A DNA stretch of 64,000 bases from Limnothrix sp. CACIAM 69d (lineage in GTDB: Bacteria > Cyanobacteriota > Cyanobacteriia > CACIAM-69d), in contig MKGP02000003.1 in NCBI GenBank assembly GCA_001913845.2, forward strand, positions 62,001 through 126,000. Direction: 5' to 3'. Below are positions 4,341 through 48,576 of the stretch, one piece after another. The notes beneath the pieces are model-generated. The model saw only the letters and a list, made by a program, of their open reading frames with translations, had not been told where the DNA came from and searched no databases. Position numbers and translations under genes: made by a program. Each line of letters opens with the position of its first letter. Position 1 is the stretch's first letter.

Positions 4341-4364
4341 TTAATTTGTTGTCCAGAAGCGTTC

Positions 4365-5147: not shown

Positions 5148-5241
5148 TGAGGTAATTCACTGGGCAATTGCGATCATTTACCCGTTGAGAAACAGTGCAT
5201 CAACCCTGTCATTAACCCCCGCCCATCAACCCCACAATACA

Positions 5242-6276: not shown

Positions 6277-6647
6277 AAAAATTCCCCCCCGGGTCTTTGT
6301 GAGTTCGATCGCGTTTGGGATCGCTACTCTGTGGAAGCCACCCGATCGCGACTTATTCAGGTTTAACCGATCGCCCCTGGGATCACCGCGCCGTCCTTAA
6401 AGCGCTGATGCTTGCGTTGGGCGATCAGTGTGAATAAGAGACTAAATTGGCTGACTTTAAATGAGGCATATTGAAGGATCAAAAGCAATAAGAGCTTTTT
6501 CTTGCAGCATCCTGATCAGACTGCTTGTAGAAGCTTTTCTTATAAAATACTCATTTCACAAGAGCAAATGCTCTATCACCAACAAATTCATGATGCCCAT
6601 CTACTAAAATACGCAGTATGAGTGCAAAAGCTACAGAATACAAATAG
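6277..6647. other. intergenic boundary of the HIP1-free island
   Basis: HIP1 cores are present until about 6370. From there the sequence becomes AT-rich (for example TTATAAAATACTCATTTC). No gene, inverted repeat or integrase-like remnant is seen. The promoter of the long gene at 6648 should lie here, but no clear -35/-10 pair could be chosen. Confidence 0.5.
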
Positions 6648-27223: not shown

Positions 27224-29809
27224 ATGTCCTTTCGCGCGCGCTCGCAAGTTTGGCCCTGGCTGAGAGTTTGGTTGGGATTCACGATCGCCCTCGGCCCAGT
27301 CTGGATCAGCGGCCCGGCCCTGGCCGAAGTGGTTCCGGCTGATGACGGATTGGGAACCCTCGTGGATCGCCCCAATGATCAACAATTCAACATCACGGGT
27401 GGCAGTCGATCGAGCAGTGGAACCAATCTCTTCCATGGGTTTGAGCAATTTGATCTGGAACCGGGCGACAGAGCCACCTTCATCATCGATCCCAGTATCC
27501 AGAACATCTTCAGCCGCATTAGCAGTGGCGATCCCTCAGTGATTAATGGTCTGGTGCAAATGAGCGGTGGTTCCGCCAATCTTTATCTTTTGAACCCGGC
27601 GGGCATCGTCTTTGGCAGCACGGCCCAAGTGAACGTACCCGGCAGCTTTTATGCCACCAGCGCCAACGCTGTGCAGTTTGGTCTTCAGTGGTTCAACGTC
27701 TTTGAGGACAATGACTTACGGGGATTGAACGGCACGCCCACGGCCTTTGCCTTTTCGCCGCTCCTGGCCGGGTCGATCGTTCACGATGGAACCATTCAAG
27801 CCAATCAACAGGTGGCCCTCCTGGGGGGAACCGTCCTTTCCACGGGGTCGATCGCCTCAGGGGCCAACGCCGTCACGGTGGCCGCCGTGGAGGGCGATCG
27901 GGTGGTGCGGATCCAAGCGATCGGCAACATCCTCAGTTTTGATATTGGCATCCCTAGCCTCAGTAGCCCCGAAAACAGCCCAATTCGACCCGCTGATACG
28001 GGATTCTTTGCGCCCCTCACCCTGCCGGAGCTGCTGAGCGGCCCCGCTGAAAATGTCGCCACCAGCATTGCAGTGGAGGACGATGGAACCGTGCAACTCA
28101 CCCGCACTGGCGAAACGGTCGCCCTGGAGCCAGGGGCGGCCTTGGTGACGGGGCCGGTTAATGGCCAAGTGGGGGGCACGGGTTTGCAAGTGTTGCGCGA
28201 TCAATTGCCGCTCCCTTTGCTGCCAGCGATTCCCGATCGCCCCGAATCTCTCGATGAACTGGGCGATCGGCTACCCCCTAACAACGCCCAAGATATTGCC
28301 AGCGACTTTGAAGCCGGAAAGTTTGACCCGCCCGGACTGCAAGGGGAGTTTGGCGATCGGGACTTTGGCCCCGGTGGCCCTTGGGGAGAGGGGAATCTAG
28401 CCTTTGATCCAGGGGAATTTGGCCCCGATTTCCCTCTGGGACCCGATGGTGAATTGGGCCCAGAACCTGGAGAGTTGGGGCCCGATGGTGAATTTGGCCC
28501 CAGTGAACTGGGCCCCGAAAGTCTCGCCATGCTGGCTGACATTGAGGCCAGTAATTTAGCCCTGGATGCCAGTTTGGGCGATACCTTTGTGCAGGGAAAT
28601 TTTGACTTGGGCTTGGATCGACTGGAAAACGCCTGGACACAGCAAATTGAGACCTATTTAGGTAGTTCAATCTCCAACAACCCCGTCAGCAGTGCCTCTT
28701 TACGGGAACTGTTGGGCGACATTCGACAACAGACCAACAGCCAAACCGCCTTGATCTACGTGATGTTGCAGGAACAACAAACGGATCTGGTGGTGATTAC
28801 CAGCAGCGGGGAACCGATCTACCGGCGATCGGGCGTGGGCCGGGCCGAGGTGTTGGCCGCCGCCGATCGCCTGCGCCAAGCGATCACCAATCCTGTGCTG
28901 CGGCAAGGCAACGCCTACCGCACCGCAGCAGAGCAGCTCGATCGTTGGCTGATCGCCCCGATCGCCCCAGAACTGGCCGCCCAAAAGATCGATACCCTGC
29001 TGATTTCCCCCGATGTGGGCCTGCGATCGCTCCCCTGGGCCGCCCTGCATGATGGTCAGCAATTTTTGGTGCAGCGGTTTGCCCTGGGCATGACCCCCAG
29101 CGTCAACCTAACCGATGCCCGCTACGTCAGCCTTCGAGATGCGCCCATTTTGGCCATGGGAGCTTCCGAATTTCCAGCGGGGTTGAATCCCCTGCCCGCC
29201 GTGCCCATGGAACTGCAAACCATTGCCCAGGAACGGGCCCAAACCACCACCTTCTTGAACGAAGCCTTCACGATCGCCAACCTGCAAACCCAGCGCCAAC
29301 TGCAACCGGCCCCCATTTTGCATCTGGCCACCCATGGCGAATTCAAACCCGGCCAACCGGTGAATTCCTATATCCAGTTCTGGAATCAGGAGCGCCTGAC
29401 GCTCGATCGACTGCGGGAACTGAGTTTGAACAATCCGCCAGTGGAATTGCTGGTGCTGAGTGCCTGTCGCACGGCCGTGGGTGATGCGAATGCGGAGTTG
29501 GGGTTTGCAGGGCTGGCCGTGCAGGCGGGTGTAAAATCTGCCCTCGCCAGCCTGTGGTATGTGAGCGACGAAGGAACCCTGGCCCTCATGAGCGAGTTTT
29601 ATCGGCAACTCTCGATCGCCCCCACCAAGTCCCAAGCCCTGCGCCAGGCCCAAATGGCCATGATTGAAGGACGAGTCCGTGTTGAAGGGAGCGGCCTCAC
29701 CTCCAGCGCCCGGGGGCCGATCCCCCTGCCGTCGCTGCCTGATAATTCCGGCTCCCTGGCCCATCCCTACTACTGGGCCGCCTTCGTGGCGATCGGCAGT
29801 CCTTGGTAA
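27224..29809 (+). CDS. fusion of TPS haemagglutinin domain and CHAT protease
   Basis: 861 residues. After a signal peptide (WLGFTIALGPVWISGPALA), residues about 38-270 form the two-partner-secretion (TPS) domain of filamentous-haemagglutinin type (GTNLFHGFEQFDLEPGD, NLYLLNPAGIVFG). A linker of about 90 residues follows, rich in Gly, Pro and acidic residues (GPDGELGPEPGELGPDG). The C-terminal domain is a CHAT caspase-like protease with His704 in HLATHGEF and Cys748 in LSACRTAVGD, both intact. TPS domains are recognised by an outer-membrane TpsB pore, so the protease is probably exposed outside the cell. No TpsB gene is in the window. The same two domains are separate, adjacent genes at 40.4-46.1 kb. 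Confidence 0.88.
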   Translation: MSFRARSQVWPWLRVWLGFTIALGPVWISGPALAEVVPADDGLGTLVDRPNDQQFNITGGSRSSSGTNLFHGFEQFDLEPGDRATFIIDPSIQNIFSRISSGDPSVINGLVQMSGGSANLYLLNPAGIVFGSTAQVNVPGSFYATSANAVQFGLQWFNVFEDNDLRGLNGTPTAFAFSPLLAGSIVHDGTIQANQQVALLGGTVLSTGSIASGANAVTVAAVEGDRVVRIQAIGNILSFDIGIPSLSSPENSPIRPADTGFFAPLTLPELLSGPAENVATSIAVEDDGTVQLTRTGETVALEPGAALVTGPVNGQVGGTGLQVLRDQLPLPLLPAIPDRPESLDELGDRLPPNNAQDIASDFEAGKFDPPGLQGEFGDRDFGPGGPWGEGNLAFDPGEFGPDFPLGPDGELGPEPGELGPDGEFGPSELGPESLAMLADIEASNLALDASLGDTFVQGNFDLGLDRLENAWTQQIETYLGSSISNNPVSSASLRELLGDIRQQTNSQTALIYVMLQEQQTDLVVITSSGEPIYRRSGVGRAEVLAAADRLRQAITNPVLRQGNAYRTAAEQLDRWLIAPIAPELAAQKIDTLLISPDVGLRSLPWAALHDGQQFLVQRFALGMTPSVNLTDARYVSLRDAPILAMGASEFPAGLNPLPAVPMELQTIAQERAQTTTFLNEAFTIANLQTQRQLQPAPILHLATHGEFKPGQPVNSYIQFWNQERLTLDRLRELSLNNPPVELLVLSACRTAVGDANAELGFAGLAVQAGVKSALASLWYVSDEGTLALMSEFYRQLSIAPTKSQALRQAQMAMIEGRVRVEGSGLTSSARGPIPLPSLPDNSGSLAHPYYWAAFVAIGSPW

Positions 29810-34355: not shown

Positions 34356-35825
34356 TTAAATTAAGGCGGCCCAGAGGGCTTGGAGCTTGAGTTGAATTTC
34401 GGCCAGCTCGCGTTCGGGGTCGGATCCGGCCACGATGCCCGCGCCCGCAAACAGCCGGGCCCGATCGCCCTGGATCAGAGCCGATCGAATCCCCACCGCA
34501 AATTCCGCATTCCCCATCGGATCGAGCCAGCCGATCGCTCCGGTATAGAGCGATCGCTCAAAGGGTTCGTAGCGATCGATGGCGGCAATGGCGGCCGATC
34601 GAGACAAACCTGCCACGGCCGGGGTGGGGTGCAAGGCCGCCACCACATCCAATGGATCCACATTGCGCGGTAACCGGCCACAGATCGGCGTTTGCAGGTG
34701 TTGAATATTGCTCAATTTGCGCAGGCCGGGCTTGACGGCCACCTTGGGATGGGCCCCCAACTGGGCAAGCCGATCGGCAATGAAGTCCGCCACCAGTCGG
34801 TGTTCGTGCAGTTCCTTGGGGTTGTTGAGCAGCCGATTGCCCCAGATGCGATCCAGTTCCGGTGTGGTGCCGCGCGGGGCCGACCCGGCCAGGGCTTCCG
34901 TGGCAATCCGGCCGTGATCAATGGCCACCAAACATTCAGGGCTGGCTCCCAAGAAGGTTTGCCCCCGATCGTTCCCCACCGCAAAGGTGTAACAACCGGG
35001 GTGACGGTGGCGCAGGTTATGGAGCAACAGGGCTGGATCCAAGGGTTCCGGGGCTTGCCAGTCGATCGCCCGGGCCAGTACCACCTTGCAAAACTGTCGA
35101 TCGGCAATATCTTTCAGGGCCGATCGGGCCGCCGCCAAAAAGGCCGGATCATCCGGGGCGGCCAGCTCCCACCCGCTGGACTGGTAACGGGCTGTCCTGG
35201 CGCTCAAGCTGGTGCTGCTGCTGCGCCACTGCAACAGTCGATCGAGCGGTTGCCACAGTTCCCCACAGAGCTGATCCAAATCGGTGCAACCATCCACCCA
35301 AGCATTGGCCGTGAATGTGGTGATGGGGCCTTGGGCGGTGGTGCGGCGAACCACTTGCCAGCGGGGTAAAAAAATCAACGCCTCCCCAAAGGGACTGCCC
35401 AGGTCGCGCGGTTCATCAAGGAAGGGAAACGCACAAAGCAGCGACGGAATCGATCGGGTCGAGGCTGGGCGATCGCCCTCGGCCCTGCCATAGGCCCGAT
35501 CGCTTGCCCGCAACAGACCATGAATCTTTCGAGCAAAGGCCTTGGTTTTGGTGAACCGATCGCTCCCGGCCACCGCCAAGGATACCGTGCGATCAAAGGC
35601 AGCAATTGCCGATCGACGATCAGGTTTTTCAAAATAAAAACTGAGGCAATCCGCCTGGGAAAACTCAGCAAAAACTTCCAGGGGATCGAGCGCCGGAATT
35701 TCAAAAGTTAAACGCACAATTTGCGATCGAAACGATCGCAAGAACTCGTCCCGAGCTGCCTCAAGTATGCAATAGAGGCGCGTTGGTGAGAGCAAATCTG
35801 TTTGCTGACCCAGTGCGCTTAACAT
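34356..35825 (-). CDS. menF: isochorismate synthase
   Basis: 489 residues. The chorismate-binding fold is recognised by KVVLARAIDWQ, TFLGASPECLVAI, TEALAGSAPRGTTPELD, LNNPKELHEHRLV and TPAVAGLSRSAAIAAI. The Mg-binding glutamates lie in the ELHEH and ERELAEIQLK segments. It turns chorismate into isochorismate, the first step of phylloquinone (vitamin K1) synthesis. It is divergent from menA, with a 288-bp spacer. The chorismate it uses is made by the aroC product, encoded 14 kb away. Confidence 0.93.
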   Translation of the reverse strand: MLSALGQQTDLLSPTRLYCILEAARDEFLRSFRSQIVRLTFEIPALDPLEVFAEFSQADCLSFYFEKPDRRSAIAAFDRTVSLAVAGSDRFTKTKAFARKIHGLLRASDRAYGRAEGDRPASTRSIPSLLCAFPFLDEPRDLGSPFGEALIFLPRWQVVRRTTAQGPITTFTANAWVDGCTDLDQLCGELWQPLDRLLQWRSSSTSLSARTARYQSSGWELAAPDDPAFLAAARSALKDIADRQFCKVVLARAIDWQAPEPLDPALLLHNLRHRHPGCYTFAVGNDRGQTFLGASPECLVAIDHGRIATEALAGSAPRGTTPELDRIWGNRLLNNPKELHEHRLVADFIADRLAQLGAHPKVAVKPGLRKLSNIQHLQTPICGRLPRNVDPLDVVAALHPTPAVAGLSRSAAIAAIDRYEPFERSLYTGAIGWLDPMGNAEFAVGIRSALIQGDRARLFAGAGIVAGSDPERELAEIQLKLQALWAALI

Positions 35826-36113
35826 TAGAATTCAGATTTGATTAAAGGCTGTAAAAAAATTAATTATCGTCCGAACTGCCGCAATGCTTCGACTACTGGT
35901 TATCTTAATCGAGTTTCCTCAATAATACCCGCCCCCTAAGGCGCATCTGGTAAATTTGGCATGATTCAGTAGTGACCCGATCGCTCTGCGCGATCGCCCT
36001 GCCTGAACCGCGCCTGAATTCTGTCTGAACCCCCTTGGGCATTGGTGAGGCCGCCCTGGGCCTGTCGGCTGCCCAAGCCACCATCTACCACCGTTGACTG
36101 TCGTGATCGCCCT

Positions 36114-37052
36114 ATGACTGCTCCCAGTCTTTCTGCCCCGCCCAACAGCCCGCCTGAAGCGCCCTCCCGCCGTCAACTGTGGAAGGCGGCGATCAAACTG
36201 CCCATGTATACCGTGGCAGTGATGCCGATTCTGTTGGGATCCGCCACCGCCGCCTTTGAAACCCAACGGCTGAATGGGGGAATTTTGGCCCTGTTTTTAG
36301 GGGCGGCCATTGCCATTATTGCTTGGTTGAATCTAACCAATGATGTGTTTGATTCTGACACGGGCATTGATGTGAATAAAGCCCATTCCGTGGTGAATTT
36401 AACCGGCAACCGATCGCTGGTCTTTGCGATTGCCAATCTATTTTTGGTAGCTGGAATTACAGCCATTGGGGCGATCGCTTGGCTCCAACAGGATTGGACA
36501 GTTTTGGCCATTATTTTAGCCAGTTGTATTTTGGGCTATAGCTATCAAGGGCCGCCCTTTCGCTTTGGCTATTTAGGGTTGGGAGAACCGATTTGTTTTG
36601 TTACCTTTGGGCCCATGGCCCTGGCCGCTGCTTACTATAGCCAAACCCAAAGTTGGTCGCTGCTAAATTGGGGCGCGTCCGTCTTTATGGGCATCACCAC
36701 CAGCCTGATTTTGTTCTGTTCCCATTTCCATCAGGTGGCTGATGATTTGCGGGCGGGCAAACGATCGCCCGTGGCCCGGCTGGGCACGGCTCGATCGGCC
36801 GCCCTGCTGCCCTGGTTTTGTGGCACGGCCTTTGGGGTGGTGATTGCGGGAGTTCTGTGGGGGGCTTTCCCCCTTTGGACGTTGCTCACGGGTTTGAGCC
36901 TGCCGATCGCCCTGCATTTGTGTCGGCATGTGGGGCAACACCACGACCAGCCCGATCGGGTCAGCAACAGCAAATTCATCGCCGTCAAATTTCATTTTTG
37001 GAGCGGTTTAGCCCTCAGTGGCGGTTTTCTGTTGGGGGCTTGGTTACAGTAG
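36114..37052 (+). CDS. menA: 1,4-dihydroxy-2-naphthoate phytyltransferase
   Basis: 312 residues from the ATG at 36114; a longer frame from 36042 only adds an atypical Pro-rich leader. UbiA-family membrane prenyltransferase: NLTNDVFDSDTGIDVNKA is the first Asp-rich motif, and FCSHFHQVADDLRAGKRSPVARLG the second. About eight to nine membrane helices are visible. It attaches the phytyl chain in phylloquinone synthesis at the cell or thylakoid membrane. It is the first gene of a menA-menC-menE run. Confidence 0.93.
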   Translation: MTAPSLSAPPNSPPEAPSRRQLWKAAIKLPMYTVAVMPILLGSATAAFETQRLNGGILALFLGAAIAIIAWLNLTNDVFDSDTGIDVNKAHSVVNLTGNRSLVFAIANLFLVAGITAIGAIAWLQQDWTVLAIILASCILGYSYQGPPFRFGYLGLGEPICFVTFGPMALAAAYYSQTQSWSLLNWGASVFMGITTSLILFCSHFHQVADDLRAGKRSPVARLGTARSAALLPWFCGTAFGVVIAGVLWGAFPLWTLLTGLSLPIALHLCRHVGQHHDQPDRVSNSKFIAVKFHFWSGLALSGGFLLGAWLQ

Positions 37053-37076
37053 TGGCCAACCCCCCGGCCTAAAATC

Positions 37077-37082
37077 AGGAGG
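37077..37082 (+). promoter_or_regulatory. ribosome binding site fixing the GTG start of menC
   Basis: Perfect AGGAGG, 6 nt before the GTG at 37089. Confidence 0.7.
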
Positions 37083-37088
37083 AAACTG

Positions 37089-38066
37089 GTGCGATCGAAT
37101 CGCTTGAATGTGCAATTTCGATATTACGAACGCAACTTTGTGCGTCCGTTACAAACCAGCTATGGCAGTTGGGCCAAGCGCGAAGGAATTGTGGTGCGGC
37201 TGCGAGATGAAGCCGATCGATTCGGTTGGGGAGAAATCGCACCCTTGCCTTGGTTTGGCACTGAAACCCTGGAGCAGGCGATCGCCTTTTTACGATCGCT
37301 GGATGGGGAAATTTCACCGGCTCAACTGTGGCAAATTCCAGACACTTTGCCCTGTTGTCAATTTGCCTTGGAATCGGCCTTCAAAAGCCTGGCTAACGAT
37401 CGGGAACCGGCCCCCTTCACCCTCCCGCCCGATCGCTTGGCGGCCCTGTTACCGGCCGGTGAACGGGTGTTGAGCAGTTGGCAAACTCCCTGGACAGCCG
37501 GCCATCGCACCTTCAAGTGGAAAATTGGCGTTTTTGCCAGCGAATTGGAATGGGGCTGGTTTGCACAATTGTTGGGGAACCTGCCGCCGGAGGGCCGGTT
37601 GCGACTGGATGCCAACGGGGCGCTCACAGAGGCCGCCTGTCGCGGCTGGCTGGAACGGTGTGACGGAGCGGGCGATCGGGTGGAATTTTTGGAACAGCCC
37701 CTGGCCCAGGTGGCTCCCATGCAGGCGATCGCCCCCCATTTCCGCACCCCGATCGCCCTTGATGAATCGGTGACCCAGTTCAAACACCTGCAATCCGCTG
37801 TTCAAGGTGGCTGGCGTGGTTTGTTTGTTCTGAAACCCAGCATTGCCGGATTTCCCAGCCGCCTTCAGGCCACCATTCAAACCCGTGGCCTCGATTGCGT
37901 GTTTTCTTCGGTGTTTGAAAGTTTTGTGGGCCAAGGGGCCGCGCTGCGGTTGGCGGAAGTGGGGGCACGGCCCGGGGGCGCACGGGCCCTGGGGTTTGGA
38001 GTGGGCAGTTGGCTGGATCCCTTGCCTCCTCGCTGGCTGGAAGGCCTATGGAACCGGCGATCCTAA
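37089..38066 (+). CDS. menC: o-succinylbenzoate synthase
   Basis: 325 residues from a GTG start with an excellent AGGAGG. Enolase-superfamily features: the barrel lysine motif TFKWKIGVF, metal ligands in RLRLDANGAL, EFLEQPL and IALDESVTQF, and the second lysine in LFVLKPSIAGF. It dehydrates SHCHC to o-succinylbenzoate in phylloquinone synthesis. Its 3' end overlaps the start of menE by 19 nt, so the two are probably translated together. Confidence 0.94.
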   Translation: MRSNRLNVQFRYYERNFVRPLQTSYGSWAKREGIVVRLRDEADRFGWGEIAPLPWFGTETLEQAIAFLRSLDGEISPAQLWQIPDTLPCCQFALESAFKSLANDREPAPFTLPPDRLAALLPAGERVLSSWQTPWTAGHRTFKWKIGVFASELEWGWFAQLLGNLPPEGRLRLDANGALTEAACRGWLERCDGAGDRVEFLEQPLAQVAPMQAIAPHFRTPIALDESVTQFKHLQSAVQGGWRGLFVLKPSIAGFPSRLQATIQTRGLDCVFSSVFESFVGQGAALRLAEVGARPGGARALGFGVGSWLDPLPPRWLEGLWNRRS

Positions 38067-39511
38067 CGCCCGATTTGGCCTGGGCCGCGCCCGATCGCTG
38101 GCTGGCCACATTGCGCGATCGGACGGCGGCCGGGTGGCTGTGGGGCCTTGAGGCCGAGGCACTGCTGCGGGCCACGGAGGAACGAGCGGCGGCCCTGGCG
38201 CGATCGGGTTGCCGGGGAACCCAATGGCGAATTTTGCTGTTGGAATCGGAGCCGTTACCCTTCTTGGCGGGATTTTTCGCAGCCGTTGCCCAAGGATGCT
38301 CCGTTTTTTTAGGCAATGCCCAATGGAGCGCCGTTGAACAAACCCAGGTGTTGAATTGGTTGCAGCCCGATCTACTCTGGGAAACCCAAGGCGAAACCAT
38401 CCCAGGCACGCCCCCGGGCGATCGCGCTCCCTTGCCCTCAGCGACGGAGCCTTGGATTGGGCTACCCACGGGCGGCACATCGGGCCAAATCCGCTTTGCA
38501 CTGCACCAACCCCGATCGCTGGCCGCTTCCGTGGCCGGCTTTTGCGCTTATTTTGCGGAAGATTGGCCCGGCCCCCAAGCCCACAGCACCCTTTGCACCT
38601 TGCCCCTGTGTCATGCCAGCGGGTTAATGCAGGTCTTGCGCTGCTTTTGGGGCGGCGGCCGGTTGGCCCTGGCCCCGATCGCCCAAGGATTGCGCTTGGG
38701 GTCGATCGGGTTTTTGTCCCTGGTTCCCACCCAACTTGTGCGGCTGCTGGGGCCAGAAACCCCTTGGCTGAAGCAATTTCGCGTGATCCTGTTGGGGGGT
38801 GCGCCCGCCTGGCCGGCCCTGTTGGATCAAGCCCAGGTGGCGGGGGTGCGGCTGGCTCCCACCTATGGCTCCACGGAAACCGCTTCCCAAGTCGCCACCC
38901 TGCGGCCCGCTGAGTTTCTGGCCGGGGCCCGAGGCGCGGGGCAGGTGTTGCCCCATGCAACGGTGGTGATCGAGCCAGACTGGGCCCACAATCCCCTTTC
39001 CCCGCCCATTCCCAAACCCAACTCGCTTGGGAGCAGGTCAACCATCGGCCGAGTGGCGATCGCGGGGAATTCCTTGGCGGCGGGCTATCTGAGCGCCCAA
39101 GGGTTTGCTCCTCTGGACACCAGCGTTACGGGGCAATTCCTGACGGATGATCTGGGCTATTTTGACGGGGCCCAGCGGCTGCATCTGGTGGGCCGCGCCA
39201 GCCACAAAATCATCACCGGGGGCGAAAATGTCTATCCCGCTGAGGTGGAAGCGGCCCTGTGGGAAACGGGATGGGTGGTTGATGTGGTGGTGTTGGGGTT
39301 GCCCGATCGGGAATGGGGCCAGGCGATCGGGGCGGCCTATGTGCCCGTGAACTCAACGATCACGCCCGATCAACTGCGATCGGCCTTGGGCGATCGGCTC
39401 AGTCGCTACAAAATTCCCAAACGCTGGCTACCCTTGACCCAAATTCCCCGCAACGCCCAAGGCAAGGTCGATCGGTTGGCCTTAGTCACACAGTTTCAAC
39501 AACTTGGTTAA
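38048..39511 (+). CDS. menE: o-succinylbenzoate-CoA ligase
   Basis: 487 residues from the ATG at 38048 (MEPAILTPDLAW). ANL-superfamily adenylate-forming enzyme: P-loop-like GLPTGGTSGQIRFALHQP, the A5 motif LAPTYGSTETASQV, FLTDDLGYFDGAQRLHLVGR (A7/A8) and a C-terminal lysine in IPRNAQGKVDRLAL. It activates o-succinylbenzoate with CoA. It lies last in the menA-menC-menE run and overlaps menC. Confidence 0.93.
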   Translation: MEPAILTPDLAWAAPDRWLATLRDRTAAGWLWGLEAEALLRATEERAAALARSGCRGTQWRILLLESEPLPFLAGFFAAVAQGCSVFLGNAQWSAVEQTQVLNWLQPDLLWETQGETIPGTPPGDRAPLPSATEPWIGLPTGGTSGQIRFALHQPRSLAASVAGFCAYFAEDWPGPQAHSTLCTLPLCHASGLMQVLRCFWGGGRLALAPIAQGLRLGSIGFLSLVPTQLVRLLGPETPWLKQFRVILLGGAPAWPALLDQAQVAGVRLAPTYGSTETASQVATLRPAEFLAGARGAGQVLPHATVVIEPDWAHNPLSPPIPKPNSLGSRSTIGRVAIAGNSLAAGYLSAQGFAPLDTSVTGQFLTDDLGYFDGAQRLHLVGRASHKIITGGENVYPAEVEAALWETGWVVDVVVLGLPDREWGQAIGAAYVPVNSTITPDQLRSALGDRLSRYKIPKRWLPLTQIPRNAQGKVDRLALVTQFQQLG

Positions 39512-39603: not shown

Positions 39604-40383
39604 ATGATTCATGTTCAGTCTCGTTGTGTTGGGTTTGGACTAACCCGCATGGCCATTGTTTTGGGTAGTTTGTTGGCAGGGGTGACACTCGGAGTCTTGC
39701 CGGGATGGGCGATTGACCCGCTCCAGCCGATCGGCCGCCTGACCCATCCCACCCTGAACCAAACCCAGCGGCAGCTCAAACAAACCAGACCCCCTGTGCG
39801 GGGCGATCGACCGATCAATGGCCGCGGGGACGGAGCCGGGAGCTATAGCGGCTGTGTCGTGGGGGGGGAAGCGGATCCGGCCAAGCTGTTGGTGGCGCTG
39901 GTTCCGCAGACTATTTGGGAAGATGGGACAACGGTGGTTTTGGGCGAAACCCGCCATGCTCAGCCTGGATTGTGGTTTTATGTGGGCTATCCAGCGGGCA
40001 CGGTGTTGGAATGGGAATTGCAAGATGCGGTCGGTCATTCCCTGGATCAGCAGCGCCTGGTGATGGGTTCCCAAGCGGGGCTGCTGCGATTGCCCCTATC
40101 ACCCAACGGCCCAGACCTTGCGCCTAATCGCTTCTATCGCTGGTACTTGCGGGTGAGCTGTGCCAATCGACCCGAGGAAACGGTGGACTTTGTGACGGGC
40201 GAGATCGTCCATGCGGCCCATGCCAAAACGGAATATTGGCTGGATCAGCTCGATCGGCTCTTGAGTCCCGACGGCCAAGGGCGATCGCCCCAATTGATAG
40301 AACTCCTGGATCAAGAGGGCTTGGGCGATTTGCGCGAGGCCCCCTTGGCTTCCCCGCTCCAGCTAGCGCCAGTCACCAATTAG
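39604..40383 (+). CDS. DUF928 exported protein
   Basis: 259 residues with a signal peptide (TRMAIVLGSLLAGVTLGVLPGWA). An Arg/Gln/Pro-rich stretch follows, and then the DUF928 domain (LLVALVPQTIWEDGTTVVLGE, PGLWFYVGYPAGTVLEWELQD, RFYRWYLRVSC). Function is unknown and it probably lies in the periplasm. DUF928 genes often neighbour CHAT and haemagglutinin-type genes in cyanobacteria, which fits here: its 3' end overlaps the 3' end of the CHAT gene on the opposite strand by about 20 bp. An alternative start at 39649 would remove 15 residues. Confidence 0.8.
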   Translation: MIHVQSRCVGFGLTRMAIVLGSLLAGVTLGVLPGWAIDPLQPIGRLTHPTLNQTQRQLKQTRPPVRGDRPINGRGDGAGSYSGCVVGGEADPAKLLVALVPQTIWEDGTTVVLGETRHAQPGLWFYVGYPAGTVLEWELQDAVGHSLDQQRLVMGSQAGLLRLPLSPNGPDLAPNRFYRWYLRVSCANRPEETVDFVTGEIVHAAHAKTEYWLDQLDRLLSPDGQGRSPQLIELLDQEGLGDLREAPLASPLQLAPVTN

Positions 40384-42966
40384 GACAAAGCCCGCCCAGG
40401 AATAGGGATCGGCAGCCAGGCTGTTGCGATCGCGCAGCAGCTTCAACTTGGCCTGCTGGAGGGCGCGGGCTTTGGACAGTCCAGCCAGCCAACCCCTGTA
40501 AAACTGGCTAAAAAACTGATTGGCGGTGTTGTCGGCGGGAATATTCCACAACGAAGACACCAGACTGCGCGCGCCCGATCGCACCGCCAACCCTGCTAAA
40601 CCCAAGGACTCGTAACGATCGCCCGTGGCCGTTTGGCAGGCGGACAAGGTGAGCAAATCCAATGGTTCCGACCGCTTGGCCCGCCGCTCCTTCAGCAACT
40701 GATCCAAATCTTCCGTGTTGAGCTTGCCTTCCCAGGTCAGCAAGAAGGTGTCATCGCGCTGGGAACTAAATTGCCCATGGGTGGCCAAGTGCAACACGGT
40801 GATCGGTTGGCTGACCAAGGCTTGGGTCAAGGCCCTGGGCGTAAAGTCCTGATTGAGCAAAATTTGCCCCTTCAGCAGTTTTCCCAACTGGGCAAGCTGT
40901 TGGGGCACGGGAGCCAGGGCCGCAAAGCCCTCGCGCGGTTCGGACAAGCCAGCCCACAGGGCCGGGCCACGCCGTCCCCGATCGGAGGCTGGATCCAGCT
41001 TCACATCAGGGGCGATCGCGACGGCAAAGGATTCCACCAAATAGCGCTCTCCGTCAAACAAGGCATCGATCGGCAAGTTCCGCAGGGAAGGATCCAATAC
41101 ACAAACCAACAGGTTAATACCCGCCGCCGTCAGGATGGGGCGATGGGGTTCCAAAATCCAGCGATAGAGCTGTTGGCTGTCCTGTTGCAAGGCGCGGGCC
41201 CTGCCCACTTGTCTGAAGTGGCGGGTAAGGCGTTTGACAATCATCTCCAACTCGGATCGGGCGATCGGCTGGCGGTGAAGGTTTTGGCGTTCTTGGCCCG
41301 TTTGGGGATCCTTCCAGCGCACCAGCGTATCGATCGACCGGTTGGCCGATCCCGAGGCCAAATCCGGCGGCAATTCCGTGATCGCCACCACCACCACCGC
41401 CGCCCGTTCATCGGTAGTCGAGTCAGCCAACTGAAGCAAATCCGATGGGGCGGAATTGTCGAGGCGACATTGCAAAAAGTTCTCAATCCGTTGCAGTTGC
41501 AGGTTTTGGAGCTGTTGGCTGGCTTCAATCCGATCGCTGGTTTCAGCCGAAGCGAACAACAACCCCATTTTTTGGCGATAGAGCGGCTCAGCGCGATCGA
41601 GCCAGCCTTGCACGCCTTCCGTTTGCAGTCCCGGCAGCCGCACACTCAGGCCCGCCAAACTGGAGCGGGCGGCCTGGGCCGCTTCGGCGGCCAAGCGGTA
41701 AGCAGCCAAAGCCTCGCGGGCTTGGCCCAAATGGTGCGCCATTCGCCCCCACAGCCACAGGGCTTCATAATTCCATTCGGGCCGATCGAGCGGTTCCCAT
41801 TGCTCAAGGGCCGATCGGGCCGCTTGGGCCGCCCCTGCCCGATCGCCCCCTTGGGCCAACACCTGGCCGCGCAATTGCCAAGCCCAACTCAACAGGGCCC
41901 GATCGCCCAAGGATTCCGCCTGTTGTTGGGCCCGTTGCACCAGGGACAACACCTGCGCCATGGGCATCGGTTGGCTTAATTGGCTTAAGGCCCGGGCTGC
42001 CGCCAACTGCAACGCCACCGCCGATCGCCCCCCTGTCCAGCGCTGGGCCACCAGTCGCAATTGTTCCGCCCACTCCGACGACTCTGGCCGCCCGCGTTCT
42101 GTGGCCAATTCCAGTCGCCCAACCATGGCCGATCGCCATAGGGCTGGATCGGGCCCCAAAATCACCGCGTGATAATGCTCGATCGCGGTTTCAGCCCAAC
42201 TAGCCTGCTCGGCGGCGGATCCGTCCATGGCCGCCCGCCGACTGGCGATTTGGGCCAAGGTCAATTCCGCCGCCGCGCCCAAAACCGGTTTTGTCTCGAT
42301 CGCCACCTGCCAAGCCTGTTCAAAATCCTCCGCCGACAGCAACGCCAGGGCCAAGCGATGCAATCCCCGGGCCCGAACGGCGATCGCCTCCGGTTCCTGG
42401 GGTGGTTCCTGTTGCCAATGGCGCTGCAAATCCCACAGCCGCACCAAGGCCCGGCGCTGGTTGCCGGCCCCCTGCCAAACGGCGGCCTCGTCAATTTGGC
42501 TATTGAGAGTTCCCACGGAGTCGCTGGCCGCTTGGTATTGCTGGGCGGCCATTTGAAAAGCCTGCTCCGCCACACTCCACTGTTGTTGAAGGGCGGCAGT
42601 TGCTCCGGCAGCTCCCCACAGCCGAGCGGCCACGGCAGCCGACAGACCACCCGCGAGGGCCGATCGCCCCCGATCGATCCAAGCTTGGGCCGCCGTCATT
42701 TCACTGAGTTGCAGGTGGGCCCAAGTCAAATAACTGGCCACCAGCCCAAGGGTTTCTCGATCGCCCCGCTGCGTTGCTGGTTCCAACACCGATTGCCAGA
42801 GGGCGATCGCCTCCCGGTAGCGACCCTCGTGATAGGCTTGCCGGCCCGCTTCGAGCAAATCGTCCAGCGCTTGGGCTTGGGCCCGTTCCCCGAGACCCGA
42901 CAGGGCGATCGCCCCGCCCCACCCCAACAAACCCAGAAGCGATCGACGAGACCAGGAGCGGTTCAT
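40363..42966 (-). CDS. exported helical-repeat CHAT protease
   Basis: 867 residues from the ATG at 42966. That ATG overlaps the stop of the upstream haemagglutinin gene as ATGA; a start 21 nt earlier is less likely. The N-terminus SRRSLLGLLGWGGAIALSGLGERAQA is a twin-arginine (Tat) signal. Residues about 35-480 are TPR-like helical repeats (EAGRQAYHEGRYREAIALWQSVL and so on). The C-terminal CHAT caspase-like domain keeps His730 (HLATHGQF) and Cys777 (LSACQTATGD). The protease should therefore fold in the cytoplasm and act in the periplasm. The substrate is unknown; the adjacent TPS protein is the obvious candidate partner. Confidence 0.88.
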   Translation of the reverse strand: MNRSWSRRSLLGLLGWGGAIALSGLGERAQAQALDDLLEAGRQAYHEGRYREAIALWQSVLEPATQRGDRETLGLVASYLTWAHLQLSEMTAAQAWIDRGRSALAGGLSAAVAARLWGAAGATAALQQQWSVAEQAFQMAAQQYQAASDSVGTLNSQIDEAAVWQGAGNQRRALVRLWDLQRHWQQEPPQEPEAIAVRARGLHRLALALLSAEDFEQAWQVAIETKPVLGAAAELTLAQIASRRAAMDGSAAEQASWAETAIEHYHAVILGPDPALWRSAMVGRLELATERGRPESSEWAEQLRLVAQRWTGGRSAVALQLAAARALSQLSQPMPMAQVLSLVQRAQQQAESLGDRALLSWAWQLRGQVLAQGGDRAGAAQAARSALEQWEPLDRPEWNYEALWLWGRMAHHLGQAREALAAYRLAAEAAQAARSSLAGLSVRLPGLQTEGVQGWLDRAEPLYRQKMGLLFASAETSDRIEASQQLQNLQLQRIENFLQCRLDNSAPSDLLQLADSTTDERAAVVVVAITELPPDLASGSANRSIDTLVRWKDPQTGQERQNLHRQPIARSELEMIVKRLTRHFRQVGRARALQQDSQQLYRWILEPHRPILTAAGINLLVCVLDPSLRNLPIDALFDGERYLVESFAVAIAPDVKLDPASDRGRRGPALWAGLSEPREGFAALAPVPQQLAQLGKLLKGQILLNQDFTPRALTQALVSQPITVLHLATHGQFSSQRDDTFLLTWEGKLNTEDLDQLLKERRAKRSEPLDLLTLSACQTATGDRYESLGLAGLAVRSGARSLVSSLWNIPADNTANQFFSQFYRGWLAGLSKARALQQAKLKLLRDRNSLAADPYSWAGFVLIGDWR

Positions 42967-45900
42967 GGTTCGGCCCCCCAACGGCAACTCGAGTCAAATC
43001 CCGCCCATTGCACTGGAGCAGCGGCCACCAACTGAATTTGCCCAGTTTCGGTTCTTTGCCAATGGGTGGCTTCCAAGATTGGCTCCCGCAGCGGAGAGGT
43101 GGTTTCGGCTTGGGCGGTGGTCGTTGGGGCGATCGGGCGCAAATCCGCCGCAAAGGGCATGGTTTCCAAGGTAGCCGCCTCGATCGGGTTGGGTGCTTGG
43201 CCCGCCCGTCCCAAGGCAAAAAACTCGATCGCCCCCGGATCCGATCGGGGGCCGCAGGGGCTGGTGGGTTTGGGGGGTACACCAACCGCCGTCGGCAGGG
43301 CGATCGCCCCTCGGGCCGGGTCGGGGTTCAACACTTCCAGTTGCACCGTGCCGCTAAATTCGGGCCCCCGCGCGGAGCTGGCGGTGATATCACTGCGATC
43401 GGTCAGCGCTTCCCGAAACGCCGTGCCAAACACCCCTTGGGCCCGCAAGTTCACCCGCCCACCAAAACTATTCACCGAATTTGCGGCAATATCGCTGTTT
43501 TCCAGTGCTACCAGCGTGTCAGTGTCAATCACAATGTTGCCGCCCGTTGCTTCCCCCTGAGCGTTGGTGCTGATCAGCGATCGCTCCCGTAATTCGATCC
43601 CTTGGCTATCAATTTGAATACCGCCAAACGCCCCCGATCGCGTTTCTGCTGACAAATGCCCATTATTCATCTGCAACTGGTCAACAACGAGTCGCATCCG
43701 TCCCGCTGCGCCACTGCCGGATGACCCCACAGCCAAGGTCGTTCCTGGCTGCAAGGTCAAGGATCCGGCTTGTATATCAAGGCTGCCTCCTTCTCCCGTT
43801 GACTCGACATCTGCTCCCACAAAAACGCCGCTAAAAGAGCCAAGATTTCGCCCCACAACATTTTCACTAAATAGTTCTTGTCGAACAGCAAAACGGGGAT
43901 CGAATCCTTCTACTAAAACTTGGTCAGCGCTGATTGTAATGTCACCGGCATGGCCTGCTTTTGTAGTTGTAGCAATTGCTTGTCCCCCACTCAGAAACGA
44001 TAAGCGATTGACTGTAAGGGTAATACTGCCAGCATCCTGATTAGTTAACGTTTGGGTATTAATCACGGCTCCGTTGGAAACAGTCAATGACTGCGCTTCA
44101 ACTTGGATTGATCCGCCACGTCCAAGGCTCTTTCCTTCTGAAGAACTAATAATCGCACTAGAAGATAAATCGGGACCAACTCCATCAATAACCATGTCTC
44201 CAGCTACTTGAATGCGAATACTTCCAGCGTTACCGCCTCCATCTGTTCTCGTAATAATTAATCCACCGCGATCTATGGATAAAGATCCTGCACTAATTTG
44301 GATGTTACCCCCTTCCCCTTTACTAGTTCTGGAAGCAGAACTATAAAGTCCACTGGACTGTTGAAAAATTAGTATCTCGTTCTCGGGAAATACAAGTACT
44401 TCGTCTAATTGACTAACGCCAGAGATGGTAATCCCATCAGTAACATGAATTAATAAGTTTCCAGCATTACCAGTTCCGCGAGTGGTGGCAGTCATGAACC
44501 CCCCATCGCGGAGTGTTAATGAACGAGCTTGGAGATCGATCGTGCCGCCATTTCCTGTGGAGTCCTCTGCACTGCGGCTGTAGATTCCACTTGACTCACG
44601 ATCAACATCCCCAAAACGGGTATCGACTCCCTCGATTAAGACATCCCCCGTGGCACGAATCATAATGCGCCCCGCATTTCCCAGACCTGCGGTATTAGCC
44701 CGAATTGAACCACCATCTAATAAATGAATGGAGCCAACTTGAATATCAATTAATCCGCCATCGCCCGTACCAGATACTTCAGCTAAATTCAAAATACCGC
44801 TGTAGAGGAAAGGGTTTTCACTGCTGCCAGCAACCATTAACTGATCAGCAATTATCTTTAGATTTCCAGCATTGCCAACTCCTTCAGTGCCAGTATAAAT
44901 GCGACCGCCATTCGATAGCTGAATAGACTGAGCCTGAACCGTTGTATTGCCCGCGTTTCCCATGGCATTTGGATCAACAGCATTTGAAAAAAAGGTTAAT
45001 CCTCCATCAAGGGTAATTGTGTCTGTTGCGCGGGCGCGGATATCCCCACTGATTGGTAAGGTATGAAGAGGTACTTGATCAGCAGCTATTGAGCTAGGTT
45101 CTACACCGTCAACCGATTCGGGCGCACGAACTCCCGCGAAAATTTGAGAGCCGGAATTCAGCAAAATATTGTGACCATCAAGTTCCACTGTGCCGCCTTG
45201 GGTCAAATCTCGAACATCCAAAAGGGCTTTATTTGTTAATAGAATGTTCGATGGTGAAATAACAGCTTGACCAGTGCCGATCGAGCCGAAATTTGTGGCT
45301 TGAATAGTGGCAATTGGTGTATTAAACGCTAGGGTTGCATCGGGAGGGCTGGCGATCAGTTGCAGGCGACCACGTGGCGCAATCAACACACCACCATCCA
45401 GCTTGATCGCCCCACCAAACAAGCCGATCGCCTGACCCGGTTTCACTTCTAAACCCGTGGGAAGGGTCGCAGTTGGATCGAGCGATCTCGCCTCCACCCG
45501 AATCGGCCCCGGCGCTGCCCCATACTGCAACCCCATCGGCACGCTCATCGACAGCAACGGCCGCCCCGCCGCATCGTTAACTCCAAAACTCAGCCCATCG
45601 GCAAACACCAGGCGATCGGCCGTGCTGGCAAAAAACGACCCGCCCAGATCTAGGCGAGCATTGGGCCCAAACAAAATCCCCGCTGGATTTAATAGGAAAA
45701 GATTGGCTGCCCCATTGGCCCTCAGCGTCCCATCCAGGAGCGATCGCTGGCCGCCAGTCACTCGGGCAAAAATGTTGGCCACGTCGGCGGCGTTGTTGAA
45801 GTGAGCCAGTCCGCCCGTGGGAATCGAAAATTGCTGAAAACTATGAAACAGGTTGCTCCCGGCCCGATCGCCCCCCTCGATCGTCCATTGGTTGGGTTCC

Positions 45901-46064
45901 CGTTGCTGCACCGTGGTTGAAAGCTGCCCATCCGGGGCGATCGACTCAGCAACCGCAGCAGTGGCCAAAAAACCCGCCATCAACCCATGGGTTAACATAA
46001 CCCCCACTCCAACCAGGGAGATGGTGCGGCAGTTTAGCCCTTGTAAACCCCAAATGTGTGCCAT
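42963..46064 (-). CDS. TPS-domain filamentous-haemagglutinin-like exported protein
   Basis: 1033 residues from the ATG at 46064; a GTG at 46088 is also possible. A long signal peptide (LVGVGVMLTHGLMAGFLATAAVA) precedes the TPS domain (GSNLFHSFQQFSIPTGG, NLFLLNPAGILFGPNARLDLGG). Hundreds of residues of beta-helix-type repeats follow (DGGSIRANTAGLGNAGRIMI, GNAGNLLIHVTDGITISG). TPS proteins cross the outer membrane through a TpsB pore, absent from this window. The gene is 55 nt downstream of the DUF1822 gene and overlaps the CHAT gene by 4 nt, so it sits in an operon with both. Confidence 0.88.
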   Translation of the reverse strand: MAHIWGLQGLNCRTISLVGVGVMLTHGLMAGFLATAAVAESIAPDGQLSTTVQQREPNQWTIEGGDRAGSNLFHSFQQFSIPTGGLAHFNNAADVANIFARVTGGQRSLLDGTLRANGAANLFLLNPAGILFGPNARLDLGGSFFASTADRLVFADGLSFGVNDAAGRPLLSMSVPMGLQYGAAPGPIRVEARSLDPTATLPTGLEVKPGQAIGLFGGAIKLDGGVLIAPRGRLQLIASPPDATLAFNTPIATIQATNFGSIGTGQAVISPSNILLTNKALLDVRDLTQGGTVELDGHNILLNSGSQIFAGVRAPESVDGVEPSSIAADQVPLHTLPISGDIRARATDTITLDGGLTFFSNAVDPNAMGNAGNTTVQAQSIQLSNGGRIYTGTEGVGNAGNLKIIADQLMVAGSSENPFLYSGILNLAEVSGTGDGGLIDIQVGSIHLLDGGSIRANTAGLGNAGRIMIRATGDVLIEGVDTRFGDVDRESSGIYSRSAEDSTGNGGTIDLQARSLTLRDGGFMTATTRGTGNAGNLLIHVTDGITISGVSQLDEVLVFPENEILIFQQSSGLYSSASRTSKGEGGNIQISAGSLSIDRGGLIITRTDGGGNAGSIRIQVAGDMVIDGVGPDLSSSAIISSSEGKSLGRGGSIQVEAQSLTVSNGAVINTQTLTNQDAGSITLTVNRLSFLSGGQAIATTTKAGHAGDITISADQVLVEGFDPRFAVRQELFSENVVGRNLGSFSGVFVGADVESTGEGGSLDIQAGSLTLQPGTTLAVGSSGSGAAGRMRLVVDQLQMNNGHLSAETRSGAFGGIQIDSQGIELRERSLISTNAQGEATGGNIVIDTDTLVALENSDIAANSVNSFGGRVNLRAQGVFGTAFREALTDRSDITASSARGPEFSGTVQLEVLNPDPARGAIALPTAVGVPPKPTSPCGPRSDPGAIEFFALGRAGQAPNPIEAATLETMPFAADLRPIAPTTTAQAETTSPLREPILEATHWQRTETGQIQLVAAAPVQWAGFDSSCRWGAEP

Positions 46065-46119
46065 GGAAGCCCTGACGAAACCAGACACATTTTATCGAAC
46101 CCTAGCGAGCGGGCGCGAA

Positions 46120-47319
46120 TTACAACGATGGTGCAGTTAAAGTTTCAATAACTTTAAAATTCCCCAGCACCACTTGTGCCATGAAGGTTTCCCCAGGTTC
46201 TGCAATGAAATCAATTTGCAAACAGGTGTGACTGTCACTATCTGGGGTGGCCTGTTCTAAGGTTTGTCCCAAAGGATCCAAAAGTGTGAGTTGCAATTCG
46301 TTGGGTAAAGGCATTTCCACATTCAGATTTTGCAGCCGAATGGTGATGTCCCACAGCAGGAGGCTCTCAGACAAGTTCTCAGGACTGATTTCTTCTTCTT
46401 CGGTGAGTTCATGGTTGCCAATCACCACACTCAAAATAATTGGCTTTTCCAAATTCTGAATATCGAGGGCTTTTGCGCCTGTTGTTTTGGGTTGTTTTCG
46501 GTAGCTAACCCTAAAAGAATCTGGTTCCAGGAGATCTTGTAATAAATCGCTCAGATTCTGCCAACCATGATCAAACTGCTTGTCTAGCCAAGAAATCAGG
46601 GAAACGGCCGGCTTGGCTCCCGTTGGTTTGACTTCTGGAGGGAGTTCTGAATCAGGTTCTGGATTAATTCTAGGATTGATTGTTGGATTGATCTCTGGAT
46701 TAATCTTGGGATCAATTTCTGAGTCAGCTACGGCGTTGCTGGTTGAAACATTCTGCTGACTAGTTTCAGAATTTATAACGCGAGTTTCTGCAACTTTTGC
46801 ATCCCACCATTCTAAGAAATCATCCAAAGATTGGAGGTCTGAGAGCCAAATTTGTTCTCGATCGAACAAGGCCGATGTGGGGATGAACCCAATCAAAGTG
46901 GCTTCGGGGCGATCGCCCGTTTGCAAATCCAAGCCAATGGCAAAGTAGCCCACCCGATCGACCCGGGATTCTGGGGCAATTTCCAAAGCATCAGCCCCCG
47001 GAAAAACCGGCCGGCACTCTACCCGACCAACGCCCTCGATCGCCAAATCTGCCACATCATCAAATCCTCGAATTATAGAATCCCAACTCTCGCAATCCTG
47101 ATGGGAATGGGGAATTTGCAGCCAATTTAACCAATCACTGAGGGCTAGGATCGCCAACGTGTTGTGATAGATCACATCACGCTGGTCTGGATGCGTTGCG
47201 ACCTTAGCAAATTGTTCGGCAGTAGCTCGGTGCTTGGAGCGCAGGGGAATTGTAATTGTTTCGTGAAACTGGTTAGTTTCTGTGGGTTGAGGATTGGGTG
47301 AAATGGGGTCAAGGGTCAT
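46120..47319 (-). CDS. DUF1822 protein
   Basis: 399 residues. The N-terminal half matches DUF1822 (HRATAEQFAKVATHPDQRDVIYHNTLAILALSDWLNWL, VGYFAIGLDLQTGDRPEATLIGFIP). A low-complexity linker (INPEINPTINPRINPEPDSE) separates it from a C-terminal part with beta-strand character (ILSVVIGNHELTEEEE, DITIRLQNLNVEMPLPNELQLTLLD). No signal peptide or membrane helix, so it is cytoplasmic. It lies between a sigma-like factor upstream and the TPS and CHAT genes downstream, a neighbourhood seen for DUF1822 in cyanobacteria. A regulatory role, perhaps toward the sigma factor, is an inference. Confidence 0.82.
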   Translation of the reverse strand: MTLDPISPNPQPTETNQFHETITIPLRSKHRATAEQFAKVATHPDQRDVIYHNTLAILALSDWLNWLQIPHSHQDCESWDSIIRGFDDVADLAIEGVGRVECRPVFPGADALEIAPESRVDRVGYFAIGLDLQTGDRPEATLIGFIPTSALFDREQIWLSDLQSLDDFLEWWDAKVAETRVINSETSQQNVSTSNAVADSEIDPKINPEINPTINPRINPEPDSELPPEVKPTGAKPAVSLISWLDKQFDHGWQNLSDLLQDLLEPDSFRVSYRKQPKTTGAKALDIQNLEKPIILSVVIGNHELTEEEEISPENLSESLLLWDITIRLQNLNVEMPLPNELQLTLLDPLGQTLEQATPDSDSHTCLQIDFIAEPGETFMAQVVLGNFKVIETLTAPSL

Positions 47320-47506
47320 GATCTAGTTGTCCGTCATTGGAGGGTTAACCAACTCAATTTTGATTGAAATTCAAGTTTGTTTCAGGCTAGTTTCAAGTAA
47401 TTTTCAATCATTAATTCTGATTGACAATACCGATTTTGAAAAACCAAAGACCAGGGATGGTAGTCCCCAACTGGAGTTGATCAATGTTTGGTCAATCGTC
47501 AATTAG

Positions 47507-47710
47507 AAGAAGCAATTGAAAGAAGCAATTGAAAATTTAGAGCCACCTGAATCGAGAATACTGTCTCCTCTTAGAGGGTTTTTGCTAAAGAATCGGTTTG
47601 ACGATTGGAGAGTGACGAGAATGATAAAGATGAAGAGCGTGGATGTATTAGGAGATGAATGTCTAGATTTAATTAACCAACTCACGAGAAGAATTTTCCT
47701 GAAAAACTAA
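47507..47710 (+). CDS. possible small protein or gene remnant
   Basis: An open stretch of about 67 codons; the first start in frame is the TTG at 47516. The product (LKEAIENLEPPESRILSPLRG to SVDVLGDECLDLINQL) looks protein-like, but it lacks a ribosome binding site. The 5' end contains a direct repeat, AGAAGCAATTGAA, twice in a row. It lies in the 419-bp gap between the sigma-like gene and the DUF1822 gene, opposite to both. It could be a remnant of a mobile gene. Confidence 0.25.
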   Translation, partial: KKQLKEAIENLEPPESRILSPLRGFLLKNRFDDWRVTRMIKMKSVDVLGDECLDLINQLTRRIFLKN

Positions 47711-47738
47711 GTTCAAGGAAGTTTCTGCGTGAATTAGG

Positions 47739-48500
47739 CTATTCGTCGGGCGGTTGGAGCGACTTCTTAAAGCGCCTAACCGACTCGAAGAACTGATCTT
47801 TATTGCGAGTGTAGATGGAGCTGAGTGTATTGGCATTGACGGATAGTTCAATCGCCAATTTCCGCATACTCTTTCCTTGATTTTTAGCATCAATCAGTTG
47901 TTCAAGGCGGATTGACTCAAAAACCACTTTTTGTAGCAATCCGTCAGGATCTTGGACTTTGTAAAGTCGCCAAACTTCCGATGAATCTAGCTCTTCTTGG
48001 GCCATGAGTGCTGACCAAGGGTTCATATCGGCGGGTAGCTCGCCCTGCTCATCCAGGTTTTCCAGATCTACACCGATTGCAAAGGGTGTGCATACCCCGG
48101 TTAAATCTCGAACAGCTTCCTTGAAAAGGTGGTTAAGTTTGTTGTTGAGCCAAGTCATGACTTCACCCCGATCGGGATCGTACGTTTTCCTTTGGATAGC
48201 TTTGGGTAGCCAATCAAGCAGGAGAAAAACTGCTTCATCATAAAAATCCCCATATCGAGGATGATCGGAACGAACGTTTTTGGTGCTCAGAGAACGTCGA
48301 AGCCGGTTTGATTCACAAACAAGTTTCACCACCTGTTGGATCGCTTTTTTGAACTCTAGACTTTGGGGCGGTAGACTTTGGGCCCGCAGCACCAGGGTTT
48401 GGAGGGTTTGGTTTAATTGGCGATCGCGATCGGGATCGGGGGATCCTGGCGGTGGAGGCTGGAAGGTGAATCGCACCACAGACGAAGACCTAATAGACAT
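47739..48500 (-). CDS. divergent sigma-70-like factor
   Basis: 253 residues from the ATG at 48500; a TTG at 48518 is an alternative. The middle resembles region 2 of sigma-70-family factors (DFYDEAVFLLLDWLPKAIQRKTYDPDRGEVMTWLNNKLNHLFKEAV). The C-terminus resembles a region-4 helix-turn-helix (GKSMRKLAIELSVNANTLSSIYTRNKDQFFESVRRFK). Similarity is weak, so this is an ECF-like assignment by pattern only. It is the first gene of the run leading to DUF1822, TPS and CHAT, and is probably their regulator. No anti-sigma factor of known type is next to it. Confidence 0.65.
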   Translation of the reverse strand: MSIRSSSVVRFTFQPPPPGSPDPDRDRQLNQTLQTLVLRAQSLPPQSLEFKKAIQQVVKLVCESNRLRRSLSTKNVRSDHPRYGDFYDEAVFLLLDWLPKAIQRKTYDPDRGEVMTWLNNKLNHLFKEAVRDLTGVCTPFAIGVDLENLDEQGELPADMNPWSALMAQEELDSSEVWRLYKVQDPDGLLQKVVFESIRLEQLIDAKNQGKSMRKLAIELSVNANTLSSIYTRNKDQFFESVRRFKKSLQPPDE

Positions 48501-48576
48501 CGATGTTGAGGCCGGCAATCATCTTTCTATCGCAGCGGTCACCAAAATTTGTGCAAGAGCAGGGAATTTGTTGCGT

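Follow-up and report, generated by a model that had tools for sequence, protein, structure and literature searches.

Organisation of the locus

The window, i.e. the whole stretch of 64,000 nucleotides analysed here from contig MKGP02000003.1 of Limnothrix sp. CACIAM 69d, contains four minus-strand genes, which code for a sigma-like protein, a DUF1822 protein, a TPS surface protein and a TPR-CHAT peptidase, and a convergent plus-strand DUF928 gene. The coordinates of the genes and of their main features are presented in Table 1; the positions and the domains named in the initial annotation, which was made from the sequence alone, are confirmed for all five genes. A gap of 31 bp separates the DUF1822 and TPS genes, and the 3' ends of the CHAT and DUF928 genes overlap by 21 bp, tail to tail. 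Compared with the congener G002, each of the five genes shows purifying selection (omega: sigma 0.20, DUF1822 0.23, TPS 0.19, CHAT 0.18, DUF928 0.58). The spacer between the sigma and DUF1822 genes is 88% identical in the same congener and absent in G001, where the two genes overlap; it is possibly a regulatory region, and given its length and AT-richness one transcript over all four genes is not assured. Scans of the locus for consensus promoters and terminators gave matches near chance level, and no promoter was assigned.

Table 1. Genes and features of the locus, with their positions in the window.
Feature	Position	Strand	Evidence and remarks
Sigma-like protein, ECF-type	47739..48518	-	Translation more likely starts at the ATG at 48500; sigma2-like helices ~29-140, sigma4-like HTH ~205-254
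Sigma-DUF1822 spacer	47320..47738	-	AT-rich, non-coding, 419 bp
DUF1822 protein	46120..47319	-	PF08852, 135 bits; model; fold search
DUF1822 linker, predicted disordered	46606..46743	-	Residues ~193-238; low pLDDT
TPS (TpsA) surface protein	42963..46088	-	PF05860, 179 bits; TIGR01901, 83 bits; signal peptide, beta-helix repeats
TPS C-terminal module	42966..43256	-	Cys945 to Cys1035; tail ILEATHW...GQIQLVA...SSC
ATGA overlap of TPS stop and CHAT start	42963..42966	-	Translational coupling
Exported TPR-CHAT peptidase	40363..42987; from ATG, 40363..42966	-	PF12770, 179 bits; 867 aa
CHAT catalytic His730 codon	40777..40779	-	Invariant in 44/44 CHAT domains
CHAT catalytic Cys777 codon	40636..40638	-	Invariant in 44/44 CHAT domains
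DUF928 protein, signal peptide	39604..40383	+	PF06051, 59 bits

The sigma-like protein and its DUF1822 partner

The window sigma-like protein gives no Pfam match with its own sequence. Sigma70_r2/r4_2 are matched by 8-9 of the 38 members of its family, and RpoE is the top PDB match of the family profile (E 0.004). The structural model (mean pLDDT 81) aligns with E. coli sigma-E (1or7_B) with a Z of 10.2 over 157 residues, the rmsd of 19 reflecting the two domains, and with the sigma2 domain of SigC with a Z of 8.8 and an rmsd of 2.1 over 86 residues. The family matches and the model together support an ECF sigma fold with sigma2 and sigma4 domains; the absence of such a fold, an outcome for which the initial annotation had allowed, is not what was found. 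A contig search with three close sigma sequences returned one congener, Oscillatoriales cyanobacterium PH2015_14S_56_116.

Concerning the gene neighbourhood, whole-genome searches of 59 cyanobacteria, together with the fetched flanks, place the sigma gene directly before a DUF1822 gene for all 42 sigma homologues. The distance matrices of the two proteins are correlated (r 0.77, 0 of 2000 permutations), also when paralogues of the same genome are compared (r 0.75); part of this correlation would be expected from shared descent alone. The sigma factor and DUF1822 are an obligate pair, and the conservation of the neighbourhood across cyanobacteria, left for checking in the initial annotation, is present both for this pair and for the recurring wider set described below. 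A second sigma–DUF1822 pair in the genus of the window (L131, L130, L132) adjoins neither an EACC2-CHAT nor a TPS gene. Other DUF1822 genes are preceded by a second, longer upstream gene (~390-570 aa; L076-L092, L109-L129); one example of its products (L086) matches Sigma70_r4 and another matches nothing.

The model of DUF1822 consists of an alpha/beta N-domain (22-192) and an Ig-like beta-sandwich (279-395), joined by a disordered linker. A widespread protein without known function is thereby given a shape, two domains and a linker between them, and a place as obligate sigma factor partner. The protein is presumably cytoplasmic and is predicted to be a partner of the sigma factor; the linker would be the candidate cleavage site, if DUF1822 is cut at all, and its length is a trait of the window's genus. 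No known anti-sigma factor resembles DUF1822 by sequence or fold in searches in which the fold comparison barely covered the N-domain, the Foldseek and VIA lists being filled by matches to the Ig-like C-domain. Sequence searches of the PDB with CHAT, TPS and DUF1822 returned nothing useful. DUF1822 is labelled a TPR protein by Kaur et al. (2021); the model, which has no tandem helical hairpins, does not support this label, and there is no TPR Pfam match.

Distribution of the wider array

Neighbourhoods of an ECF sigma factor, DUF1822 and an EACC2-caspase have already been published (Kaur et al. 2021, eLife, PMC8195603); there, the gene after the sigma–DUF1822 pair mostly codes for a cytoplasmic EACC2-caspase(CHAT)-CHASE2 membrane protein. 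The initial annotation, which noted that these families are found together in cyanobacteria and knew of no described function, is not quite right on the latter point, as the association has been described in part. In our set, 26 of the 42 loci have an EACC2-type CHAT as the next gene after the pair, in most cases with CHASE2 as the receptor half; Pfam detects both CHAT and CHASE2 in this protein, while EACC2 has no Pfam entry and is assigned from the architecture. The further genes of the 42 loci are DUF928 (at least 17), a CHAT gene or fusion (at least 12), TPS (at least 13) and TpsB (at least 4), all of them lower bounds, as the flanks are short. The fullest array is sigma > DUF1822 > EACC2-CHAT-CHASE2 > DUF928 > < CHAT < TpsB < TPS (L058, L075, L065). 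DUF928 genes cluster with CHASE2, TPS and CHAT genes, and CHASE2 is close by in 16 of 41 cases versus 0.7 expected; within the incomplete coverage of our full-text searches, the family is named in one paper. TpsB is present at the locus in L058 and L075, and it is missing from the window locus, with two ShlB-type genes located elsewhere in the same genome. Beside the sigma–DUF1822 locus of L057, a single polypeptide of 1441 aa (2797-7122) combines a TPS domain with a TpsB-type barrel.

In the window's genus the order is sigma > DUF1822 > TPS > CHAT >, which is kept in all three genomes, and DUF928 is convergent in two of the three. Compared with the systems of Kaur et al. (2021), the locus shares the sigma–DUF1822 pair, a caspase-like CHAT peptidase and the cyanobacterial host, whereas it has a TPS gene and an exported TPR-CHAT instead of EACC2-CHAT-CHASE2; the accessible part of PMC8195603 contains no mention of an extension of the neighbourhood by TPS, DUF928 or TpsB. 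The EACC2-CHAT-CHASE2 gene is absent from the window locus and is found on another contig in all three genomes. It is intact in G002 (L137:7788-10442) and G001 (L136:8254-11016); in the window genome (G000:C15) the ORF is split by a frame break into two overlapping parts (L135:3319-5535 and 5499-5918); the break is either genuine or due to misassembly.

The position of this gene bears on an alternative in which EACC2-CHAT-CHASE2 would sense the envelope through CHASE2 (perhaps with DUF928), its cytoplasmic CHAT would cut the DUF1822 linker and free the sigma factor, and the TPS protein, the exported CHAT and DUF928 would serve as surface input or output. Such trans-envelope signalling would follow the logic of Craspase, with DUF1822 in the place of Csx30; it is compatible with the explanation that we prefer, and we consider it a realistic possibility, if short of a probable one. 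The frequency of the gene directly after the pair, its combination of CHAT and CHASE2, its retention in all genomes of the genus, the association of DUF928 with CHASE2 and the two-domain model of DUF1822 speak for it, as does the coupling of caspase activation to the sigma factor that is predicted in PMC8195603. The absence of the gene from the window locus, the broken frame in the window genome (with an intact ORF in the congener) and the restriction of the long linker to this genus speak against it.

It is very improbable, in our judgement, that the neighbourhood is due to chance, i.e. that the sigma–DUF1822 pair landed before a TPS–CHAT operon in this genus and exerts no control over it. 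The 419-bp spacer, the missing EACC2 gene and the existence elsewhere of TPS–CHAT pairs without a sigma gene (L138, L144, L145) would fit such an origin; however, the set of sigma, DUF1822, DUF928, CHAT and TPS genes recurs in different order in other families (L056, L057, L058, L075), the arrangement is kept throughout the genus, and the genes are under purifying selection.

Concerning type III-E Craspase (TPR-CHAT, Csx30, RpoE), the locus is similar in having a TPR-CHAT near an ECF sigma factor and the partner of that factor; in contrast to Craspase, which comes with Cas7-11/gRAMP and Csx30/Csx31, the locus has no CRISPR genes, the CHAT is exported rather than cytoplasmic, and the partner is DUF1822. 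Membership was rejected, as none of the five proteins has a PADLOC match and the CHAT has an export signal. The initial annotation had drawn this parallel and judged a direct copy unlikely, which stands; the CHAT that it chose for the comparison was the wrong one, since the CHAT linked to sigma–DUF1822 is usually the cytoplasmic CHAT-CHASE2 protein, here encoded elsewhere.

The TPS protein and its two-cysteine C-terminal module

The window TPS protein has an N-terminal TPS domain after the signal peptide, followed by beta-helix repeats (PF05860, TIGR01901), and Cys945 and Cys1035 are its sole cysteines after the signal region. A two-cysteine C-terminal module, defined as one cysteine at most 30 residues from the end and another 60-175 residues from the first, is found in 58 of the 64 intact unfused TPS proteins; the spacing has a median of 91 and a range of 65-157. 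In 47 of the 64, there are only two cysteines after the signal region, and the last 30 residues of the unfused proteins contain 61 cysteines versus 4.4 expected. The consensus of their C-terminal tail is VEAxGW....G.V.LVA...C. The tail is found in none of the 29 fused TPS-CHAT proteins, 28 of which have a CHAT domain that ends within two residues of the C-terminus; these counts are based on strict patterns and cysteine positions, and a looser pattern also matches the CHAT ends in five fusions. As the TPS domains of fused and unfused proteins look like two subfamilies, the mutual exclusion of tail and CHAT does not have to mean that one replaces the other in function.

The module resembles the periplasmic anchor of HMW1 and HxuA, whose C-terminus remains in the periplasm and holds the protein by means of a disulfide loop (PMC5422565, PMC4873976), and by this analogy a disulfide and a periplasmic location may be expected here as well. 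The common traits are the TPS domain, the signal peptide, the beta-helix and two C-terminal cysteines. There are also differences: the cysteines of HMW1 and HxuA lie much closer together, with a spacing of 6 residues in HxuA versus a median of ~91 in the cyanobacterial TPS proteins, which carry the conserved VEAxGW...LVA tail, and the window has a peptidase gene inside the operon. In the congener G002, DUF1822 and CHAT are apparently separated by a tandem pair of TPS genes (L054:15237-17528 and L139:18087-18890), the second of which is cut by a contig break.

The exported CHAT peptidase and its association with TPS

With the ATG start at 42966, the numbering of the catalytic Cys777 in the initial annotation is correct, and its partner is His730; the His/Cys dyad is intact in every CHAT domain examined. 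The N-terminus of the window CHAT is a signal of the twin-arginine type (NRSWSRRSLLGLLG), in agreement with the export noted there. A hydrophobic N-terminal segment is present in 18 of 19 TPS-adjacent CHAT proteins, the 19th having an over-long start call; the twin-arginine form is found in the window's genus and Sec-like segments elsewhere. Judging from these N-termini, the CHAT proteins adjoining TPS genes are exported.

Looking at ten genomes searched completely, 29 of the 55 TPS genes are fused to a C-terminal CHAT within one ORF, always with the TPS part first. Among the 26 unfused TPS genes, 7 have a CHAT within 6 kb (~1 expected) and 19 have no CHAT gene nearby, so the two-cysteine module does not need a linked peptidase. 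The window itself contains such a fusion 13 kb from the locus (27224-29809, plus strand), a single 861-aa ORF which is 95% identical in the congener. In the tree of CHAT domains the window CHAT groups with its two congeners and the deeper links are mostly unsupported; common descent with the CHATs of the sigma–DUF1822–DUF928 loci thus cannot be claimed. The genomic arrangement supports a functional pairing of TPS with CHAT, and the overlapping genes together with the fusions make it more plausible that the exported window CHAT is tied to the TPS protein. The peptidase probably trims or releases this surface protein.

The exported CHAT might instead act on another target, such as envelope or extracellular proteins or in self-killing, with the TPS protein as a merely co-expressed surface partner. 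CHAT genes far outnumber TPS genes (141 versus 55 in the ten genomes, and up to more than 30 CHAT per cyanobacterial genome), and a link to cell death is common for caspase-like proteins of bacteria (PMC8195603); however, the TPS-CHAT fusions and the ATGA overlap tie the CHAT specifically to TPS, and we regard a different target as unlikely.

A CHAT peptidase commonly has its substrate encoded by a neighbouring gene (PMC9729208), and the maturation proteases known for TPS adhesins are encoded outside the TPS operons (review, PMC5422565). On these two grounds, and as the two proteins would meet in the periplasm, we propose that the CHAT processes the TPS anchor. Bordetella FhaB is similar in being a TPS adhesin processed by proteases at its C-terminal end, whereas its proteases DegP, CtpA and SphB1 belong to other families and are unlinked; here a clan CD CHAT, to which cleavage is provisionally ascribed, is co-translated or fused.

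Proposed mechanism

The explanation that we tentatively prefer, with somewhat less than even confidence, combines a sigma/DUF1822 switch, a disulfide-anchored TPS adhesin and a periplasmic CHAT which processes the C-terminal anchor of the adhesin. A dedicated sigma factor of the ECF type would form, together with DUF1822 as its constant partner, a cytoplasmic expression switch for the TPS surface protein, which would be threaded through a TpsB pore encoded elsewhere in the genome and held by its disulfide-closed C-terminal module. As in HMW1 and HxuA, the end of the module would stay in the periplasm. The TPR-CHAT would be made from the TPS message by translational coupling and would act periplasmically on the C-terminal region of the TPS protein, so that the adhesin is matured or released; in the fusions the CHAT domain itself would replace the C-terminal module. 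DUF928 would be exported and have an accessory role. The membrane EACC2-CHAT-CHASE2 protein, encoded after sigma–DUF1822 in most relatives, is probably an envelope sensor by which the pair is unlocked, and its gene would have moved away in this genus. The steps that we infer in this account are the binding of DUF1822 to the sigma factor, the disulfide, the periplasmic location of the module, the cleavage and the trigger.

A broader generalisation is speculative and, as we see it, rather unlikely: the cyanobacterial TPS adhesins could constitute a secretion type of their own, in which a periplasmic anchor with two cysteines is combined with a CHAT peptidase of clan CD dedicated to release (adjacent, or fused instead of the anchor) and with a sigma/DUF1822 switch. 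If true, a caspase-family protease would serve the shedding of surface proteins, and not death or defence. Discussion of the cyanobacterial CHAT peptidases has mostly centred on death and defence; here a large subset is exported and linked to adhesins by gene overlap and frequent fusion. The association with TPS also provides a testable substrate and a prediction at the level of residues (Cys777 of the peptidase, Cys945 and Cys1035 of the adhesin).

The association of sigma, DUF1822 and caspase, the TPS systems and the C-terminal anchors are each already known separately, whereas the gene combination, the frequent TPS-CHAT fusion and the two-cysteine module look new. In the searched literature we found no description of this fusion or of the module, and in full texts, within incomplete coverage, none of a CHAT joined with filamentous hemagglutinin or with CHASE2 in cyanobacteria.

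Other features of the window

Directly upstream of DUF928 lie menaquinone/phylloquinone-type genes (menF, menA, menC and menE-like, judged from their translations; positions 34356-39511). The window also contains a bacterial RNase P RNA on the plus strand (3818-4340; RF00010, 240 bits).
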